From Marinilactibacillus sp. Marseille-P9653 (GTDB lineage: Bacteria > Bacillota > Bacilli > Lactobacillales > Carnobacteriaceae_A), in contig NZ_CAKAKH010000001.1 of assembly GCF_916618885.1 (NCBI RefSeq), positions 434,001 through 498,000 on the forward strand: a stretch of 64,000 nucleotides of DNA. The letters are read 5' to 3'. Of the stretch, positions 8,815 to 30,120 are shown piece by piece. Below the pieces are notes generated by a model. That model worked only from the letters and a program-made list of their open reading frames with translations, was not told where the DNA came from and ran no database searches. The translations under genes were made by a program, and so were the position numbers. Each line of letters starts with the position of its first letter. Within the stretch, counting starts at the first letter, position 1.

Positions 8815-9312
8815 AGTGCGCCCGGCATGGGCGACAACTTGGTGGTGAAAGTCCACTACAGGCTTGGCAGTAGGAACTGTTAGCGAAAGACAAGGGTGTC
8901 CGCCGTGAGGCGGAATCTGAAGGAAGTCGGACGCAAATGCTCGCACTGACGAACAGAAACTTCATATCAAGGCTGAATCAGGACGGACGAGCTTGCGAAA
9001 CTAAGCAAAGTCCAATACTGCACGAATCCTGTACAGTAAATGAAGCAGTGACATGAGCGGAAGGTTGTCGTTCTTACCCGGGGAGGTCTGTCTAGCGACC
9101 GTTCGGTCGTAGTAACAACGAATAGGCAGAAGTCAGCCGAGGTCATAGTAGGGGAAATGTACTGAAGGACCAAACAATATCAAATACAAAGTATAGATTG
9201 GAGGTTAGAAGGGACGTTTACTGCAGAAAACAACCGAATGGTTGGCAATCTACAGAGGGATAAGGTGGAACCGAAAGAGTATGTAGATGTGTAGAGTACC
9301 CTTCTAGGTCAA

Positions 9313-10608
9313 ATGAAAGAACTGTATCGTAAGTCTCCATCTTTGATGGAGCTCGTTGTAAGTAGAAAGAATCTATCGACAGCTGCCACGAAAGTTAGAC
9401 GTAATAAAGGAGCAGCTGGGATAGACGGTATGACAGTATGGGAAGTCGAGGAACATATTGAAGAAATTTATCTGCCATTGAGGCAGAAACTCCTTAATGA
9501 AACTTATAAACCTCAACCCGTTAAACGAGTTGAAATTCCTAAGCCAAACGGAGATAAACGTAAACTCGGTATTCCTTGCGTTCGTGACCGTGTTGTACAA
9601 CAAGCTATCAAACAAGTGATTGAACCACTGATTGACCCGCACTTTCTTCCGCAAAGTCATGGATTCCGCCCGAATAAAGGAACCCATACAGCATTGAAGC
9701 AATGTGTAGATTATTACGAAGAAGGATATAAATTCGTGGTCGATTGTGACTTGAAACAATGTTTCGATACATTAAGTCATGATAAACTGATGTACCATCT
9801 TGAAACCTTTATTCAAGATAAAGCGATTTTAAAGGTTGTCCGTAAGTTTTTGATGAGTGGTGTCATAGACCTGTCTGGCGAATTCGTAGAAAGTAAAACA
9901 GGCGCACCGCAAGGTGGCGTACTCTCGCCCCTTCTCAGCAATGTTTACTTACATGAACTGGACAAAGAACTAGACCGTCGTGGTCATCGATTTGTTCGTT
10001 ACGCGGATGACTTCGTCATCTATGTGAAATCTAAACGAGCAGGTGAACGTGTGATACAAAGTGTGACACAATTCATCGAGAAAGATTTGAAACTAATCGT
10101 TAACAAAGATAAGAGTAAAGTCGGGTCTCCTACTCGTTTAAAGTTCTTGAGCTGTCTGATAAGGAAAGTGAATGGAACCTGTCGTTTTATCCCTACAAAA
10201 TCAGCCAAACAGAAATTTAAACGAACACTCAAACGACTAACGAGTCGTAAACGTTCCGGAACCTTTGAAGTTATTATAAAGGAAATCAATCAAGTGACTC
10301 GAGGGTGGATTGGCTATTTTGGTCTTGGATTTATCAAAATGTTCATAAAACGGATAGAACAATGGTTACAACATAGAATCAGACAGCTGATACTCAAAAG
10401 ATGGAAGAAAAGCAAAACGAAAATAACGAAGTTATTCAGCTATGGATTGGATATGGATAGTGCTAGAAGAATCGGATTTTCCCGCAAGAAGTACTGGAGG
10501 CTATCCATGACGCCTGAAGTTCATCAGGCACTTACAACGAAAAGACTCCACCATTGGGGCTTAGTCTCTTTAAGCTCCTTGGTAGAGTCAGCTTACGCAA
10601 GGTATTGA
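9313..10608 (+). CDS. ltrA: Group II intron reverse transcriptase/maturase
   Basis: 431 residues. The reverse transcriptase fingers and palm contain GAAGIDGMT, HGFRPNKGTHTAL, VVDCDLKQCFDTL, GAPQGGVLSPLLSN and the catalytic YADD at residues 230-233. A thumb/maturase X domain follows (TRGWIGYFGLGFIK) and the C-terminus ends in SLVESAYARY. There is no HNH endonuclease domain, as expected for class C introns, which use hairpin targets. The frame is complete and all catalytic residues are present, so the element may still be active. Confidence 0.93.
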   Translation: MKELYRKSPSLMELVVSRKNLSTAATKVRRNKGAAGIDGMTVWEVEEHIEEIYLPLRQKLLNETYKPQPVKRVEIPKPNGDKRKLGIPCVRDRVVQQAIKQVIEPLIDPHFLPQSHGFRPNKGTHTALKQCVDYYEEGYKFVVDCDLKQCFDTLSHDKLMYHLETFIQDKAILKVVRKFLMSGVIDLSGEFVESKTGAPQGGVLSPLLSNVYLHELDKELDRRGHRFVRYADDFVIYVKSKRAGERVIQSVTQFIEKDLKLIVNKDKSKVGSPTRLKFLSCLIRKVNGTCRFIPTKSAKQKFKRTLKRLTSRKRSGTFEVIIKEINQVTRGWIGYFGLGFIKMFIKRIEQWLQHRIRQLILKRWKKSKTKITKLFSYGLDMDSARRIGFSRKKYWRLSMTPEVHQALTTKRLHHWGLVSLSSLVESAYARY

Positions 10609-10684
10609 ACCGCCGTGTACGGAACCGTACGCACGGTGGTGTGAGAGGACGGTAAATCAATTAATGATTTACCTCCTACTCGAT
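10609..10684 (+). ncRNA. Domain V-VI of the group IIC intron
   Basis: The catalytic domain V hairpin follows the maturase stop codon. Next is a short stem GGTAAATCA...TGATTTACC, taken as domain VI with its branch-point adenosine, and the terminal CTACTCGAT. Confidence 0.75.
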
Positions 10685-14260: not shown

Positions 14261-14289
14261 TTGACAACTTCTGAGGAACACTGTAAGAT
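14261..14289 (+). promoter_or_regulatory. Promoter of the tryptophan locus
   Basis: TTGACA at 14261-14266, a 17-bp spacer and TAAGAT at 14284-14289. The predicted start is near 14296, about 15 bases before the leader-peptide ribosome site. Confidence 0.8.
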
Positions 14290-14325
14290 AAAAATCACAT
14301 TAGAGATGACAAAGGAGAGACACTC

Positions 14326-14394
14326 ATGAACTTCGATTCTAAGCAGACAGTACAATTGAATATGAACTGGCAAAGCTGGCGTAGATCGTTGTAG
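14326..14394 (+). CDS. Tryptophan leader peptide (22 residues, two Trp codons)
   Basis: ATG at 14326 has AAAGGAGAG (14311-14319) at good spacing. The product ends NWQSWRRSL, with TGG codons at 14368 and 14377, only a few codons before the TAG at 14392. The frame lies between a consensus promoter and a set of mutually exclusive hairpins, and genes of the Trp transporter and TrpB follow. This fits the ribosome-sensing peptide of an attenuator. Two Trp codons in 22 is far above normal Trp usage. Confidence 0.82.
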   Translation: MNFDSKQTVQLNMNWQSWRRSL

Positions 14395-14524
14395 ATATGA
14401 GTAGTCTCATAGATACAACGTTTAGAACTCATTCTAAATTTTGTATCTATGCGACTTATTTCTCGAGAAATTCTAGATAAGTAACCACATAGATATCACG
14501 ATATCTATGTGGTTTTGTTTTTTT
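14387..14524 (+). promoter_or_regulatory. Trp attenuator: competing hairpins and first terminator
   Basis: Segment 1 (14387-14401, overlapping the peptide stop codon) pairs with segment 2 (14406-14420): CGTTGTA/TACAACG and TATGAG/CTCATA around a GA/GA internal loop. Segment 2 also pairs with segment 3 (14441-14451): CATAGATACAA/TTGTATCTATG, topped by TTTAGAA/TTCTAAA. Segment 3 can instead pair 8 bp with the left arm of the terminator (CATAGATA at 14488-14495). The terminator is ACCACATAGATAT/ATATCTATGTGGT followed by TTTGTTTTTTT. Because 2:3 does not overlap the terminator, the likely antiterminator is 3 with the terminator arm. Pairing is seen directly; the mechanism is inferred. Confidence 0.78.
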
Positions 14525-14573
14525 AAAAGGCAATTTCCACTACTGAACCAAAGTGTGGAGATTGCCTTTTTTT
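14525..14573 (+). terminator. Second terminator in the trp leader
   Basis: AAAAGGCAATTTCCAC pairs with GTGGAGATTGCCTTTT (one G-U), followed by more T. It starts directly after the U-tract of the first terminator. I see no obvious alternative pairing that would open it. Confidence 0.85.
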
Positions 14574-14638
14574 GTGGCTTATCTGTGAAAGCACTGTCTA
14601 ATTAAAAGCATACATAAGTATATAAGGAGCTGATGCAG

Positions 14639-14674
14639 ATGATATCTGACTGGGAATGGAAAAGAACGGGCTGA
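14639..14674 (+). CDS. Second Trp-rich minigene (11 residues, MISDWEWKRTG)
   Basis: ATG at 14639 lies 9 bases after AAGGAG (14624-14629). The 11-codon frame has TGG at 14651 and 14657 and stops at TGA 14672, 46 bases before the trpX start. It lies beyond both terminators. It may be a second Trp-sensing peptide acting on translation of trpX, but chance cannot be excluded for so short a frame. Confidence 0.5.
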   Translation: MISDWEWKRTG

Positions 14675-14720
14675 ACAGTAAACGAACCTAAAAATGATGA
14701 ACGAGAGAGGAAACGTAAAA

Positions 14721-15764
14721 ATGAAAAGAAGAGGCATGCTCGTAACGTTTGCACTAATATTTGCAGTATTAATTATAGGATTCTTTTTCCCGAGTGGACA
14801 AAGCACTAACCGAACAGCTTCAAATAATAGTGAAACAGCAACAGAAACACCTGAAGAGCAATTCACGGTCGGCTTACTACAAACGACAAGTCACCCGTCG
14901 CTAGATGAAATTCGTGAAGGAACGATTCAAGGGTTAGCGGATAATGGCTACGTTGAAGGCGAAAACCTAACAATCAACTTCCAGAATGCACAAGGGGATC
15001 AGAACTTGATGAATACCATGGCAAGTTCCATTGTGAGTGATGGCGCAGATATTGTGATTGGTATCGGAACACCCGCTAGTCAGGCGCTGACAAATGCAAC
15101 AAGTGAAATTCCTGTCATAATGGCTGCTGTCTCAGACCCGATCGGTTCAGGCCTAGTGACTTCTGAGGAGGAACCAGGTGGAAACGTTACAGGCGTAAAG
15201 AACCAGGCACCTGTTGAAGAGCAGATCAAATTAATGACAGACATTTTACCAGACGTGCAAACGGTTGGTATGCTTTACAGTTCTGGTGAGGATAATGCCC
15301 GAGCAGAAGCAGAGCGCGCGCAAGTCGCAATTGAAGATGCTGGACTAGACTTAGAAACGTATACTGTTTCAAACACAAATGAGATTCAGCAAATGATCGC
15401 AACGATGTCCAGAGAAGTTGACGTGATTTACTTGCCGACAGATAATACGATCGCTAGTGCATTCAACACAGTTGTTAGCGAAGCGGATCGTTATAATATG
15501 CCACTCATTCCGACGGTTGATTTGATGATCGCACAAGGTGGACTGGCAACGATTGGGATTAGTCAAGTTCAACTAGGTGTTGATTCAGGAAGAATGGCCG
15601 CAGAAGTGTTAGGTGGTCAAGATACAGCAACGTTCCCGGTTTACATCGTAGAAGGCGGAGAGCAGCTGATCAACGTAGAAAAAGCAGAGAAGATCGGCGT
15701 AACGATTCCAGAAGATGTTTTAGAAAACAGTAGAATTATCGAACCAGAAGAGGGAGGTCAATAA
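14721..15764 (+). CDS. trpX: Tryptophan ABC transporter, substrate-binding protein
   Basis: 347 residues starting at ATG 14721 (AGAGAGG upstream; the ATG at 14694 has no ribosome site). The N-terminus MKRRGMLV plus a long hydrophobic core is a membrane anchor or signal. The mature part is an ABC_sub_bind (type-1 periplasmic fold) protein with FTVGLLQTTSHPSLD, GTPASQALTNATSEIP and AAVSDPIGSGLV. Family members bind aromatic amino acids; TrpX of streptococci serves tryptophan. The two-Trp leader peptide upstream strongly supports that substrate here. Confidence 0.85.
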   Translation: MKRRGMLVTFALIFAVLIIGFFFPSGQSTNRTASNNSETATETPEEQFTVGLLQTTSHPSLDEIREGTIQGLADNGYVEGENLTINFQNAQGDQNLMNTMASSIVSDGADIVIGIGTPASQALTNATSEIPVIMAAVSDPIGSGLVTSEEEPGGNVTGVKNQAPVEEQIKLMTDILPDVQTVGMLYSSGEDNARAEAERAQVAIEDAGLDLETYTVSNTNEIQQMIATMSREVDVIYLPTDNTIASAFNTVVSEADRYNMPLIPTVDLMIAQGGLATIGISQVQLGVDSGRMAAEVLGGQDTATFPVYIVEGGEQLINVEKAEKIGVTIPEDVLENSRIIEPEEGGQ

Positions 15765-15765
15765 G

Positions 15766-16647
15766 ATGATTATATCAGCTATCGCATCAGGATTTTTATG
15801 GGCAGTACTCGGAATAGGCCTATATTTAACGTACCGTATTTTGAAATTTCCAGATTTGACAACAGAAGGCTCATTCCCATTAGGCGCTGCAGTTGCCGTG
15901 ACTGCAATCGTATCTGGTGTTCCACCTATTTTATCGATCATCTTAGCGATTTTAGCAGGCATGTGTGCCGGACTAGCAACGGGACTCCTTTATACAAAAG
16001 GAAAAGTTCCTGTGATTCTAGCAGGGATCCTCGTGATGTCAGGGTTACATTCGGTTAACCTCTTCATTATGAAGCGACCAAACCTAAATTTGCTGAACCA
16101 AAGCCGACTATTTGATTATTTTCAAGGTTTACCGAATTATTATGACGTCGTCTTTATCGGAATCATCGTACTGGTTGTACTAATTAGCGTGATTCTGGCA
16201 TTCTTCTATACTAATCTCGGACAAGCCTTTATCGCAACCGGAGATAACGAAGATATGGCACGTTCCCTTGGCATTCGTACAGACAATATGAAAATTCTTG
16301 GCCTCGTCATCTCAAATGGGGTCATTGCTTTAGCCGGTGCGCTTGTCGCGCAAAACAACGGATATGCAGACGTTAATGGAGGAGCTGGCGTCATCGTTAT
16401 CGGTCTGGCTTCACTAATCATCGGAGAAGTGATGTTCAAGGATCTGAAACTAGGTGAGCGGTTGTGTACCATCGTAATCGGATCAGTCTTGTACCAATTA
16501 TTATTACTAGGCGTTATCCAGCTTGGTTTTGATACAACCTACATCCGTATCTTCAGCTCAGCGATCCTAGCAATTTGTTTAATGATTCCACAAATCAGAC
16601 GGACACTTGGACTAGGTACATTAATCGGGAAAGGGGAAAAAGCATGA
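15766..16647 (+). CDS. trpY: Tryptophan ABC transporter, permease
   Basis: 293 residues, almost entirely hydrophobic with about eight segments, of the BPD_transp_2 family. LTYRILKFPDLTTEGSFPLGA is the conserved N-terminal permease signature, and ATGDNEDMARSLGIR is the cytoplasmic coupling loop for the ATPase. It starts one base after the trpX stop codon and overlaps trpZ by four bases, so the three genes are translationally coupled. Confidence 0.85.
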   Translation: MIISAIASGFLWAVLGIGLYLTYRILKFPDLTTEGSFPLGAAVAVTAIVSGVPPILSIILAILAGMCAGLATGLLYTKGKVPVILAGILVMSGLHSVNLFIMKRPNLNLLNQSRLFDYFQGLPNYYDVVFIGIIVLVVLISVILAFFYTNLGQAFIATGDNEDMARSLGIRTDNMKILGLVISNGVIALAGALVAQNNGYADVNGGAGVIVIGLASLIIGEVMFKDLKLGERLCTIVIGSVLYQLLLLGVIQLGFDTTYIRIFSSAILAICLMIPQIRRTLGLGTLIGKGEKA

Positions 16648-17426
16648 GTACATTATTGAAACTAAAAGGTTTGACAAAAGTCATTACGAACCAGGCAGAT
16701 GAAGATAACCGAATATTGGACGGTGTGGATTTCACCTTGAACGAAGGCGAATTTGTCACTGTACTAGGCGGAAATGGCGCCGGTAAGTCAACTTTGTTCA
16801 ATAGTATTACCGGTTCAACAGAAACAACTGGTGGAACTGTCGAATTAAAAGGTAAAAACCTGACAAAGTGGAAAGAAGAAAAACGAGCAGGATTGATTTC
16901 AAGAGTGTTCCAGGATCCTAAAATGGGGACGGCACCGCGAATGACCGTAGCAGAGAATTTATTGTTGGCTAAACTACGTGGTGAAAGAAAAACACTGAAA
17001 TCTAGAAGCTTGAAAAAGAATAAAGCGTCTTTCGTAGAGATGTGTGCATCCATTGGAAATGGACTAGAAAAACAAATCGACGCACCTGCTGGTAATTTAT
17101 CGGGTGGACAGCGGCAATCGTTGAGTTTACTGATGGCAACAATGACGCGACCAGATTTGTTACTGCTGGATGAGCATACCGCAGCGCTTGACCCGAAAAC
17201 CTCTAAAAAACTGATGGAACTAACAGACCAGATCATTAAAGAAAAGCAATTGACGTGTATGATGATTACGCACCAAATGGAAGATGCGTTAGCGTACGGC
17301 AATCGTCTGATCGTTATGAAAGATGGAAAAATCACATTGGACTTAAACGAGAAAGAAAAAGAAAAAATGACTTTAAAAGACTTACTGAGATTATTTGAAG
17401 AAGAAAATCTGACGGCAGTACTTTAA
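16644..17426 (+). CDS. trpZ: Tryptophan ABC transporter, ATPase
   Basis: 260 residues starting at the ATG inside the ATGA overlap with trpY. Walker A is GGNGAGKST, the Q-loop is in SRVFQDPKMG, the signature is LSGGQRQ, Walker B is LLLLDEHTAALD and the H-loop is MITHQ. It powers uptake by TrpXY. A longer frame reaches back to 16575 but runs inside trpY and has no ribosome site. Confidence 0.87.
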   Translation: MSTLLKLKGLTKVITNQADEDNRILDGVDFTLNEGEFVTVLGGNGAGKSTLFNSITGSTETTGGTVELKGKNLTKWKEEKRAGLISRVFQDPKMGTAPRMTVAENLLLAKLRGERKTLKSRSLKKNKASFVEMCASIGNGLEKQIDAPAGNLSGGQRQSLSLLMATMTRPDLLLLDEHTAALDPKTSKKLMELTDQIIKEKQLTCMMITHQMEDALAYGNRLIVMKDGKITLDLNEKEKEKMTLKDLLRLFEEENLTAVL

Positions 17427-17449
17427 ACATAAAAAGGAGAGTGGATCAA

Positions 17450-18622
17450 ATGGCGACAAATCAAGCAGGATATTTTGGAAACTACGGTGGAAGTTTTGTA
17501 CCGCCAGCACTCAGTGAAGTGCTTAATCACTTAGCAGAAGAATTTGAGCACTACAAAGACGATGCAGACTTTAATAGAGAATTCAAAGAGATTTTAAAAG
17601 AGTACGTCGGAAGAGAGAATCCACTCACTTTTGCTTCAAGACTGACAGAAGCCTTTGACGGACCAAAAATTTACTTGAAACGAGAAGACTTGAACCACAC
17701 TGGGGCGCACAAAATCAATAATGTGATCGGCCAGATCTTACTCGCAAAACGCATGGGTGCGCACCGAATCATCGCAGAAACCGGCGCCGGCCAACATGGC
17801 GTTGCGACCGCTACAGCTTGCGCAATGTTTGGCATGGACTGCACCATCTACATGGGCAAACTGGATACTGAAAGGCAAGCGTTAAATGTCTTTCGCATGG
17901 AACTGTTGGGTGCAAAAGTCATACCAGTCGAAAAGGGGCAGGGAAGACTAAAAGACGCAGTAGATGTCGCTTTAGCGGATCTTGTAGAAAATTATGAGAA
18001 TACATTTTACCTATTGGGCTCGGCTGTTGGACCGCATCCATTCCCATCGATCGTCAGACATTTTCAGTCTGTGATTAGTGAGGAGTCGAAGCGTCAAATT
18101 ATCCAGCAAGATGGCAAGCTTCCGGCAGCGGTTATCGCGGTCGTTGGTGGCGGCAGTAATGCAATTGGCTCTTTCGCTCATTATATCGATGAAGAAGACG
18201 TGCGTTTGATTGGAGCGGAACCGGAAGAAGCAGCTACGATGGCACATGGAACGCCAGCGGAAATTCACGGCTTTAAAACGCTGGTGCTACAAGACGAGAA
18301 TGGCCACCCAGCACTAACGTACTCGATTGCGGCTGGGTTAGATTATCCAGGAATTGGGCCGGAACATAGCTATTTAAAAGAAAGCGGACGCGCAGAATAC
18401 TATACTGTGTCTAAAGAAGAAGTACTAGAAGCTTTCCAATTGCTAGCTTCAAAAGAAGGCATTGTACCGGCTTTGGAGAGTGCGCATGCAGTGGCGCTAG
18501 CGAAGAAACTGGCGCCAGAATTTGATAAGGAAGATTCTATTATCCTGACGATTTCAGGTCGCGGAGACAAAGATGTAGAACAAGTTCAGGATTTATTGAA
18601 GGCAATGCAAGATTCTAAATGA
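17450..18622 (+). CDS. trpB: Tryptophan synthase beta chain (no trpA nearby)
   Basis: 390 residues of the TrpB1 type. KREDLNHTGAHKINN carries the PLP lysine K88, ETGAGQHGVATA the dipole-binding loop and GGGSNAIG the phosphate loop. It condenses indole with L-serine. ATG 17450 is preferred over GTG 17441, because AAGGAGAG ends right at the GTG. It is 23 bp behind trpZ and the last gene of the operon. No trpA, trpC, trpD or trpE occurs in the window, so it may salvage external indole rather than complete de novo synthesis. Confidence 0.92.
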   Translation: MATNQAGYFGNYGGSFVPPALSEVLNHLAEEFEHYKDDADFNREFKEILKEYVGRENPLTFASRLTEAFDGPKIYLKREDLNHTGAHKINNVIGQILLAKRMGAHRIIAETGAGQHGVATATACAMFGMDCTIYMGKLDTERQALNVFRMELLGAKVIPVEKGQGRLKDAVDVALADLVENYENTFYLLGSAVGPHPFPSIVRHFQSVISEESKRQIIQQDGKLPAAVIAVVGGGSNAIGSFAHYIDEEDVRLIGAEPEEAATMAHGTPAEIHGFKTLVLQDENGHPALTYSIAAGLDYPGIGPEHSYLKESGRAEYYTVSKEEVLEAFQLLASKEGIVPALESAHAVALAKKLAPEFDKEDSIILTISGRGDKDVEQVQDLLKAMQDSK

Positions 18623-21535: not shown

Positions 21536-21555
21536 GAAACCGTTAAATTAAAAGA

Positions 21556-21686
21556 ACTAGGGGAGCATAGAGCTTTCAGTAAAGATCGAGGATTTCCAAA
21601 AAACCTCCAACCAAACTGATTGCGAAAGCTGAGAAAGGTAAGACCTGACCCTTAACCTGAACTAGGTAATGCTAGCGGAGGGAAGT
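21556..21686 (+). ncRNA. TPP (THI-box) riboswitch
   Basis: The conserved pieces occur in order: CTAGGGGAGC, GCTGAGAAAGG, GACCCTTAACCTGA, ACTAGGTAATGCTAGCGGAGGGAAGTG. These form the pyrimidine-sensor and pyrophosphate-sensor helices of the TPP aptamer. A variable helix of about 40 nt lies between them. It lowers expression when thiamine diphosphate is plentiful. thiD lies downstream. Confidence 0.95.
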
Positions 21687-21742
21687 GATCATGATGAATA
21701 GCAGATTAAGTTATCTGTATTCCTATTTAGTGTGAACCGACT

Positions 21743-30019: not shown

Positions 30020-30120
30020 AAAAGAGTAAGAGATGAGCGTTAAGTGCTGAGTGGATGGGATGTCGCCCTCAGACGAAAAAACGATTGAGTTTTGCGACTC
30101 CTCTCTGCATCCGCTTTAAA
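30020..30120 (+). ncRNA. Tetrahydrofolate (THF) riboswitch
   Basis: It contains GAGTAAGAGATGAGCGTTAAGTG, the GGATGGGATGTCGCC core and the 3' CTGCATCCGCTT, in the order of the folT-type THF riboswitch (first block given as GAGTAAGAG, ATGAGCGTTAAG). A folate transporter gene follows, the usual partner. A T6 run at 30130-30135 may mark the expression platform. Confidence 0.88.

Follow-up and report, generated by a model that had tools for sequence, protein, structure and literature searches.

The attenuator of the enteric his operon has six RNA strands in series, and a stalled ribosome frees the second of these, after which strands 2 and 3 and strands 4 and 5 pair and antitermination follows. 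In the Firmicutes, His-leader attenuators have been predicted in some members, including the his operons of Peptostreptococcaceae (passages of Ashniev et al. 2022, PMC9413887), and His leaders have likewise been predicted upstream of hisS/hisZ in Bacillus (passages of Naville and Gautheret 2010, PMC2965389). Tryptophan genes can also be governed differently; for example, S. suis trpX is described as being under T-box control (in the relevant part of PMC9382623). The trpB motif (Rfam RF04312) has been presented as a strong riboswitch candidate, with an unknown ligand and more than 900 representatives in Firmicutes and Fusobacteria (Narunsky et al. 2024, PMC11109978). The passages of that paper on the motif place it ahead of trpB and of ABC transporters for amino acids, note that the right shoulder of its hairpin P1 contains an antiterminator stretch, and do not exclude a classical attenuator. 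In our literature search, mainly of openly accessible articles, no paper explaining the motif was found.

In the window, which is the whole 64,000-nucleotide stretch of Marinilactibacillus DNA that was analysed, an element of this kind stands in front of a tryptophan transport operon; all features below lie on the plus strand and are given in window positions. Judging from sequence comparison and modelled folding, we consider it very likely that this element is a ribosome-mediated transcription attenuator, and that it is the Trp version of a family coinciding with the Rfam trpB motif. The RF04312 match (14406-14524) aligns over the full length of the model (positions 1-107 of 107) with nearly all pairs standard, as a P1 hairpin followed by an intrinsic terminator. 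It scores 57.2 bits (E about 1e-7), which is 1.8 bits short of the gathering cut-off of 59 bits; two congeners score above that cut-off (61.4 and 60.4 bits) and two others below it. Upstream, a putative sigma-70-type promoter (14261-14289; TTGACA at 14261-14266 and TAAGAT at 14284-14289, spacer 17 nt) and the Shine-Dalgarno sequence AAAGGAG (14311-14317) precede a leader peptide ORF of 22 codons, MNFDSKQTVQLNMNWQSWRRSL (14326-14394), which begins with ATG at 14326, ends with the stop codon TAG at 14392-14394, and contains Trp codons at 14368-14370 and 14377-14379. Directly upstream of the switch there is, in other words, a short ORF that bears a Shine-Dalgarno sequence and codons for the regulated amino acid. 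The leader is kept at four congeneric loci, is identical as a peptide in a Marinilactibacillus psychrotolerans record, and has the family-wide form WQ(S/N)WRR, and the anatomy of the attenuator is identical across all congeneric genomes found. Known leader-peptide families in Pfam and NCBIfam gave no match among the leaders tried.

The six strands of the proposed switch are numbered 0 to 5, where 0 would be the strand of regulatory codons, 1 would run from the stop codon, and 4 and 5 would be the terminator arms. Segment 0 (14373-14386) is the leader-codon stretch AAGCTGGCGTAGAT, which by covariation and duplex energies can pair with segment 3. Segment 1 (14387-14401), recognized by covariation and geometry, holds the leader stop codon and has segment 2 as its partner; segment 2 (14406-14420) is the 5' arm of P1 and pairs with 1 or 3, as indicated by covariation and the Rfam match. 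Segment 3 (14441-14459) consists of the 3' arm of P1 and an extension, and from covariation and folding it is the switch strand, with 0, 2 or 4 as partner. Segments 4 (14485-14496) and 5 (14501-14524) are evident from sequence and covariation as the left and right arms of terminator 1, the latter comprising the arm proper (14501-14512) and a U tract (14513-14524). Helix 1:2 joins 14387-14401 to 14406-14420, helix 2:3 joins 14408-14418 to 14441-14451, and helix 3:4 joins 14444-14451 to 14488-14495 and is lengthened by 14454-14459 with 14477-14482, while the terminator 1 hairpin is formed by 14485-14496 and 14501-14512. The fold energy of 14326-14524, -57.7 kcal/mol, lies well below the -38.2 obtained for shuffles (z -5.1). 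The two-Trp leader ORF, the pairings 1:2, 2:3 and 3:4 and the terminator, which the original prediction had read from the letters of this stretch, are all present. Its four pairings (1:2, 2:3, 3:4 and 4:5) are real, and what it missed are helix 0:3 and a second terminator, T2 (14525-14576). As it had stated, the E. coli scheme does not fit: in the four-strand trp leader of the E. coli type, the strand directly behind the masked one is the antiterminator strand and overlaps the left terminator arm, whereas the window element has six strands. Neither Trp_leader nor His_leader of Rfam matched up to E 10.

The anatomy, the conservation, the covariation of five helices, the match between codons and genes and the spacing are computed observations. 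On an alignment of 50 diverse loci (A7), standard pairs occupy 81% of cells in helix 0:3, 88% in 1:2, 90% in 2:3, 83% in 3:4 and 94% in 4:5, whereas slid controls were mostly 25-50% paired, with one at 69%. The covariation score of each of the five helices exceeded all 500 shuffles; these keep columns and not relatedness, so the count out of 500 is not a probability. Terminator and antiterminator helices are mutually exclusive, with covariation in 2:3, 3:4 and 4:5, and in duplex energy a locus's own strands beat those exchanged across codon classes. The TGG codons and the pairings, on whose conservation in relatives the original prediction had staked itself, are both conserved. Other pairings were tried and rejected, namely a his-like 0:1 as well as 0:4 and 1:4, which were at chance against swaps and shuffles. 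The element is like the enteric his operon attenuator in its six strands in series and in the antitermination expected from a stalled ribosome; it differs in that strand 0 pairs with 3 around 1:2, not with 1.

In the mechanism that we propose, segment 3 would be the decider: paired with 4 it would block the terminator, and held by 0 or 2 it would let the terminator form. Under Trp scarcity, a ribosome would stall at the first Trp codon and cover segment 0 but not segment 1, so that 1:2 and 3:4 could form and transcription would read through into the Trp uptake genes. With Trp plentiful, a ribosome at the stop codon would cover both 0 and 1, 2:3 would form, and transcription would stop. With no ribosome, either 0 (around 1:2) or 2 would hold segment 3, and termination would be favoured. 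We infer that the leader is translated, that ribosomes stall on it, and that transcription in fact terminates or reads through accordingly. Segment 1 starts at a median of 1 nt past the stop codon and 19 nt past the first regulatory codon (n=187). With the leading edge of the ribosome assumed to lie 12 nt beyond the A site, segment 1 is reached in 187/187 loci by a ribosome at the stop codon, and in 98% (n=187) it stays uncovered when the ribosome is at the first regulatory codon; the second Trp codon of the window is too near segment 1 for that segment to stay free.

Equilibrium folds of the RNA from the ribosome's leading edge onward were compared at 190 loci. The mean probability of the antiterminator helix, P(3:4), was 0.46 for a ribosome on the first regulatory codon, 0.36 for one on the last and 0.08 for one on the stop codon, the corresponding window values being 0.60, 0.05 and 0.00; at many loci antitermination is only partial in the folds. 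Shuffling segment 1 lowered the stalled-state P(3:4) from 0.46 to 0.05, and shuffling segment 2 raised the stop-state value from 0.08 to 0.50, while shuffling segment 0 had a small effect (0.24 to 0.30). When RNA upstream of the ribosome was kept in the fold, the mean P(3:4) was 0.20 in the stalled state and 0.05 at the stop codon, and in the window it did not rise on stalling; the weaker contrast between states arises because upstream RNA pairs with segment 1. Geometry and modelled folding, which as computations fall short of proof, agree with both branches of the original prediction, in which masking of segment 1 at the stop codon would lead through 2:3 to a stop, and stalling at the Trp codons would lead to 1:2 together with 3 and the terminator arm. 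Together with the conserved TGG codons and pairings, they argue for ribosome-mediated Trp attenuation as it had been put forward. The "reversed logic" attached to it has to be dropped, as the predicted outcome is that of classical his/trp attenuation, with read-through under starvation and a stop under plenty.

The same folds bear on the first alternative, which is the scheme as originally drawn, with only four competing pairings and with read-through by default from an untranslated leader. All four pairings exist, and helix 0:3 in the window is weaker than in relatives, degenerate, and hardly seen in the window folds, which would suit that scheme. However, 0:3 covaries across the family, including on an alignment anchored without regard to complementarity, where 72% of cells were paired versus 36-47% in slid controls and no more than 67% after permutation of rows. 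In addition, P(3:4) without a ribosome is 0.11 in the family and 0.06 in the window, which points to termination via 0:3 or 2:3; a ribosome-free transcript is predicted to favour termination, since 0 or 2 then occupies segment 3. We therefore regard the four-pairing scheme as unlikely.

The second alternative is that of the discoverers of the trpB motif, a metabolite-binding riboswitch to which an upstream ORF would be incidental. It has the standing of a published strong candidate with a conserved P1 and terminator (motif passages of PMC11109978), and the bearing evidence comes from the leaders of the wider family. We applied a fixed rule (an ORF preceded by a Shine-Dalgarno sequence, whose end directly precedes the motif) to 122 distinct RF04312 loci, and found a leader ORF with regulatory codons directly upstream at 110 of them: 88 with codon runs (W, H, F/Y or L) and 22 with a single Trp codon. 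Dinucleotide shuffles under the same leader rule gave 1.2% for runs and 1.8% for single Trp codons, or 3.0%. By eye, the remaining 12 loci comprise eight with F..SQF-type leaders, two with WQSR leaders that failed the start rule, and two marginal matches with none. The codons follow the gene behind them. Trp leaders have TrpX as the next gene in 41/47 cases and TrpB in 4/47 (45/47 in total), His leaders have hisZ/hisS in 14/15, and Leu leaders have an SNF symporter in 8/8; behind Phe/Tyr leaders lie SNF and Branch_AA_trans proteins, ABC binding proteins and one DAHP synthase. Where the window has its Trp stretch, other leaders hold HHHH, LLLLANL, FFFSFFR or YYYSYYR, matching the gene behind, and the P1 core stays constant while the leader codons vary. 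At six loci, Tyr/Phe leaders precede Branch_AA_trans (PF05525) proteins labelled "branched-chain", which suggests aromatic substrates for these proteins.

Several codon classes can occur in a single genome. For example, one genome has His, Leu and Phe types, another has Tyr, Leu and His, and a third carries three copies (Trp, Tyr/Phe with aroE, and Phe/Tyr). A riboswitch would thus have to be reconciled with an amino-acid-specific leader ORF upstream of nearly all loci, with leader codons that shift with the downstream gene over an unchanged P1 core, with a P1 that is a plain hairpin, and with segments 0 and 1, which lie outside the published motif and yet covary with 3 and 2. Its discoverers, in the motif passages, could not themselves exclude an attenuator (PMC11109978). 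We consider this reading very improbable. A TnaC-like arrest peptide, with WQxWRR in the exit tunnel sensing free Trp, is less probable still: WQ(S/N)WRR is strongly conserved among Lactobacillales leaders, but pairing with segment 3 explains that conservation, and HHHH, LLLLANL, FFFSFFR and YYYSYYR take the equivalent place elsewhere and match the gene.

The family is widespread. RF04312 matches occur in 211/395 sampled Lactobacillales genomes and in 33/147 genomes from a single family in the same phylum, for which Clostridium provides the named relatives. The view that ribosome-mediated attenuation of a Trp operon is unusual in Bacillota, which had accompanied the original prediction, is wrong as far as Lactobacillales are concerned, and the window element is one local form of an extensive RNA motif already in print. 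Named genomes scanned for the pattern yielded additional leaders in Enterococcus, Vagococcus, Tetragenococcus, Streptococcus, Clostridium, Romboutsia, Terrisporobacter, Aliicoccus, Niameybacter, Fusobacterium and Alloscardovia, with Fusobacteria and Bifidobacteria represented by one pattern-found locus each. With R1, a covariance model made from 50 loci, further copies were found, with Tyr/Phe leaders upstream of aroE and DAHP synthase and with His leaders upstream of hisZ, hisD and hisS; R1 spans the leader end, so the leaders that it found are partly circular, while the match between codons and genes is not. R1 matches weaker than about 1e-5 were mostly without a convincing leader. The two leaderless RF04312 matches among the 122 loci are phylum-level ones (E 2e-4 and 9e-4) that appear to be false positives.

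On this evidence, we think it likely that the trpB motif represents a single homologous switch, read by ribosomes, whose specificity has repeatedly changed between Trp, His, Leu and Phe/Tyr by swaps of leader codons. The opposite RNA strand would co-evolve because the regulatory codons themselves form a strand of the switch. Such a switch, with several copies per genome, would be a leader-peptide counterpart of the T-box. The two share a conserved scaffold in which a codon sets amino-acid specificity, and they differ in that the T-box codon is read directly by a tRNA, whereas the window codons would be read by the ribosome. As for the published motif, its P1 is helix 2:3 and its terminator is 4:5; it was published as a riboswitch candidate, and its passages in PMC11109978 do not contain the phrase "leader peptide" or describe an upstream ORF, segments 0 and 1 or amino-acid-matched codons. 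The His attenuators of Firmicutes likewise have His-run leaders before his genes, and those of Peptostreptococcaceae are probably the His version of the trpB-motif family. The relevant passages of PMC9413887 and PMC2965389 mention no connection with the trpB motif or with Trp, Leu or Phe/Tyr versions, and our literature search found no paper that joins His attenuators to the motif or describes those versions.

In the window, the attenuator is followed by trpX (14694-15764, start possibly 14721), encoding the substrate-binding protein of a tryptophan ABC transporter (NF041285, 405 bits, cut-off 390), an ABC permease (15766-16647, PF02653), an ABC ATPase (16575-17426, PF00005, true start probably further in) and trpB for the tryptophan synthase beta chain (17441-18622, TIGR00263). 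trpA was not found in the genome, and a stand-alone trpB in a transporter operon of such a genome may possibly serve indole salvage. T-boxes (RF00230) had no match within the window, and 18 are found elsewhere in the same genome. Elsewhere in the window, THF (30020-30118) and TPP (21549-21700) riboswitch matches exceed the Rfam cut-off, and group II intron pieces (8899-10684) surround a reverse-transcriptase-like ORF (9313-10608).

T2 is a second strong intrinsic terminator, recognized by folding and comparison between the attenuator and trpX, and it is predicted to form even with 3:4 enforced as in the read-through state, which counts against the proposed mechanism. It is unique in the genome, and a dispersed repeat was thereby ruled out. 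A T2-like hairpin comes next at 77/115 Trp loci, 28/57 loci of Phe/Tyr/Leu type and 0/15 His loci, compared with 64/538 control windows. In Lactobacillales, T2 is unrelated to terminator 1, and pairing of the terminator 1 right arm with the T2 left arm was rejected (-5.4 versus -7.1 for swaps). In Clostridia that pairing is supported (-12 to -14 kcal/mol at six loci), and the chain of alternative helices may run on there through a duplicated terminator, first right arm with second left arm. In Clostridia the second terminator often nearly duplicates terminator 1, and TCCTAGG often lies between them. The stretch 14394-14566 is weakly similar (30 bits, cut-off 100) to the Enterococcus sRNA EF3314_EF3315 (RF02634), which also seems to carry two tandem hairpins. 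Directly upstream of trpX lies a second Trp-bearing mini ORF, MISDWEWKRTG (14624-14674; Shine-Dalgarno 14624-14629, ATG 14639, stop 14672-14674), whose SDW(E/D)W is kept in Marinilactibacillus and Alkalibacterium. Further Trp-bearing mini ORFs occupy the equivalent position in Desemzia, in Isobaculum and at one other locus.

The mechanism of the large published trpB motif had been left open, and we propose as an answer that it would sense, by way of a ribosome, whether one particular tRNA is charged, with the amino acid differing by copy. Leader-peptide attenuation would then be a frequent mechanism in Lactobacillales and Clostridia, which are known more for their T-boxes. The natural swaps of codons and strands would offer a test set for specificity change in such switches. 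In addition, the leader codons would predict the substrates of vaguely annotated transporters, such as SNF and Branch_AA_trans symporters and ABC systems.
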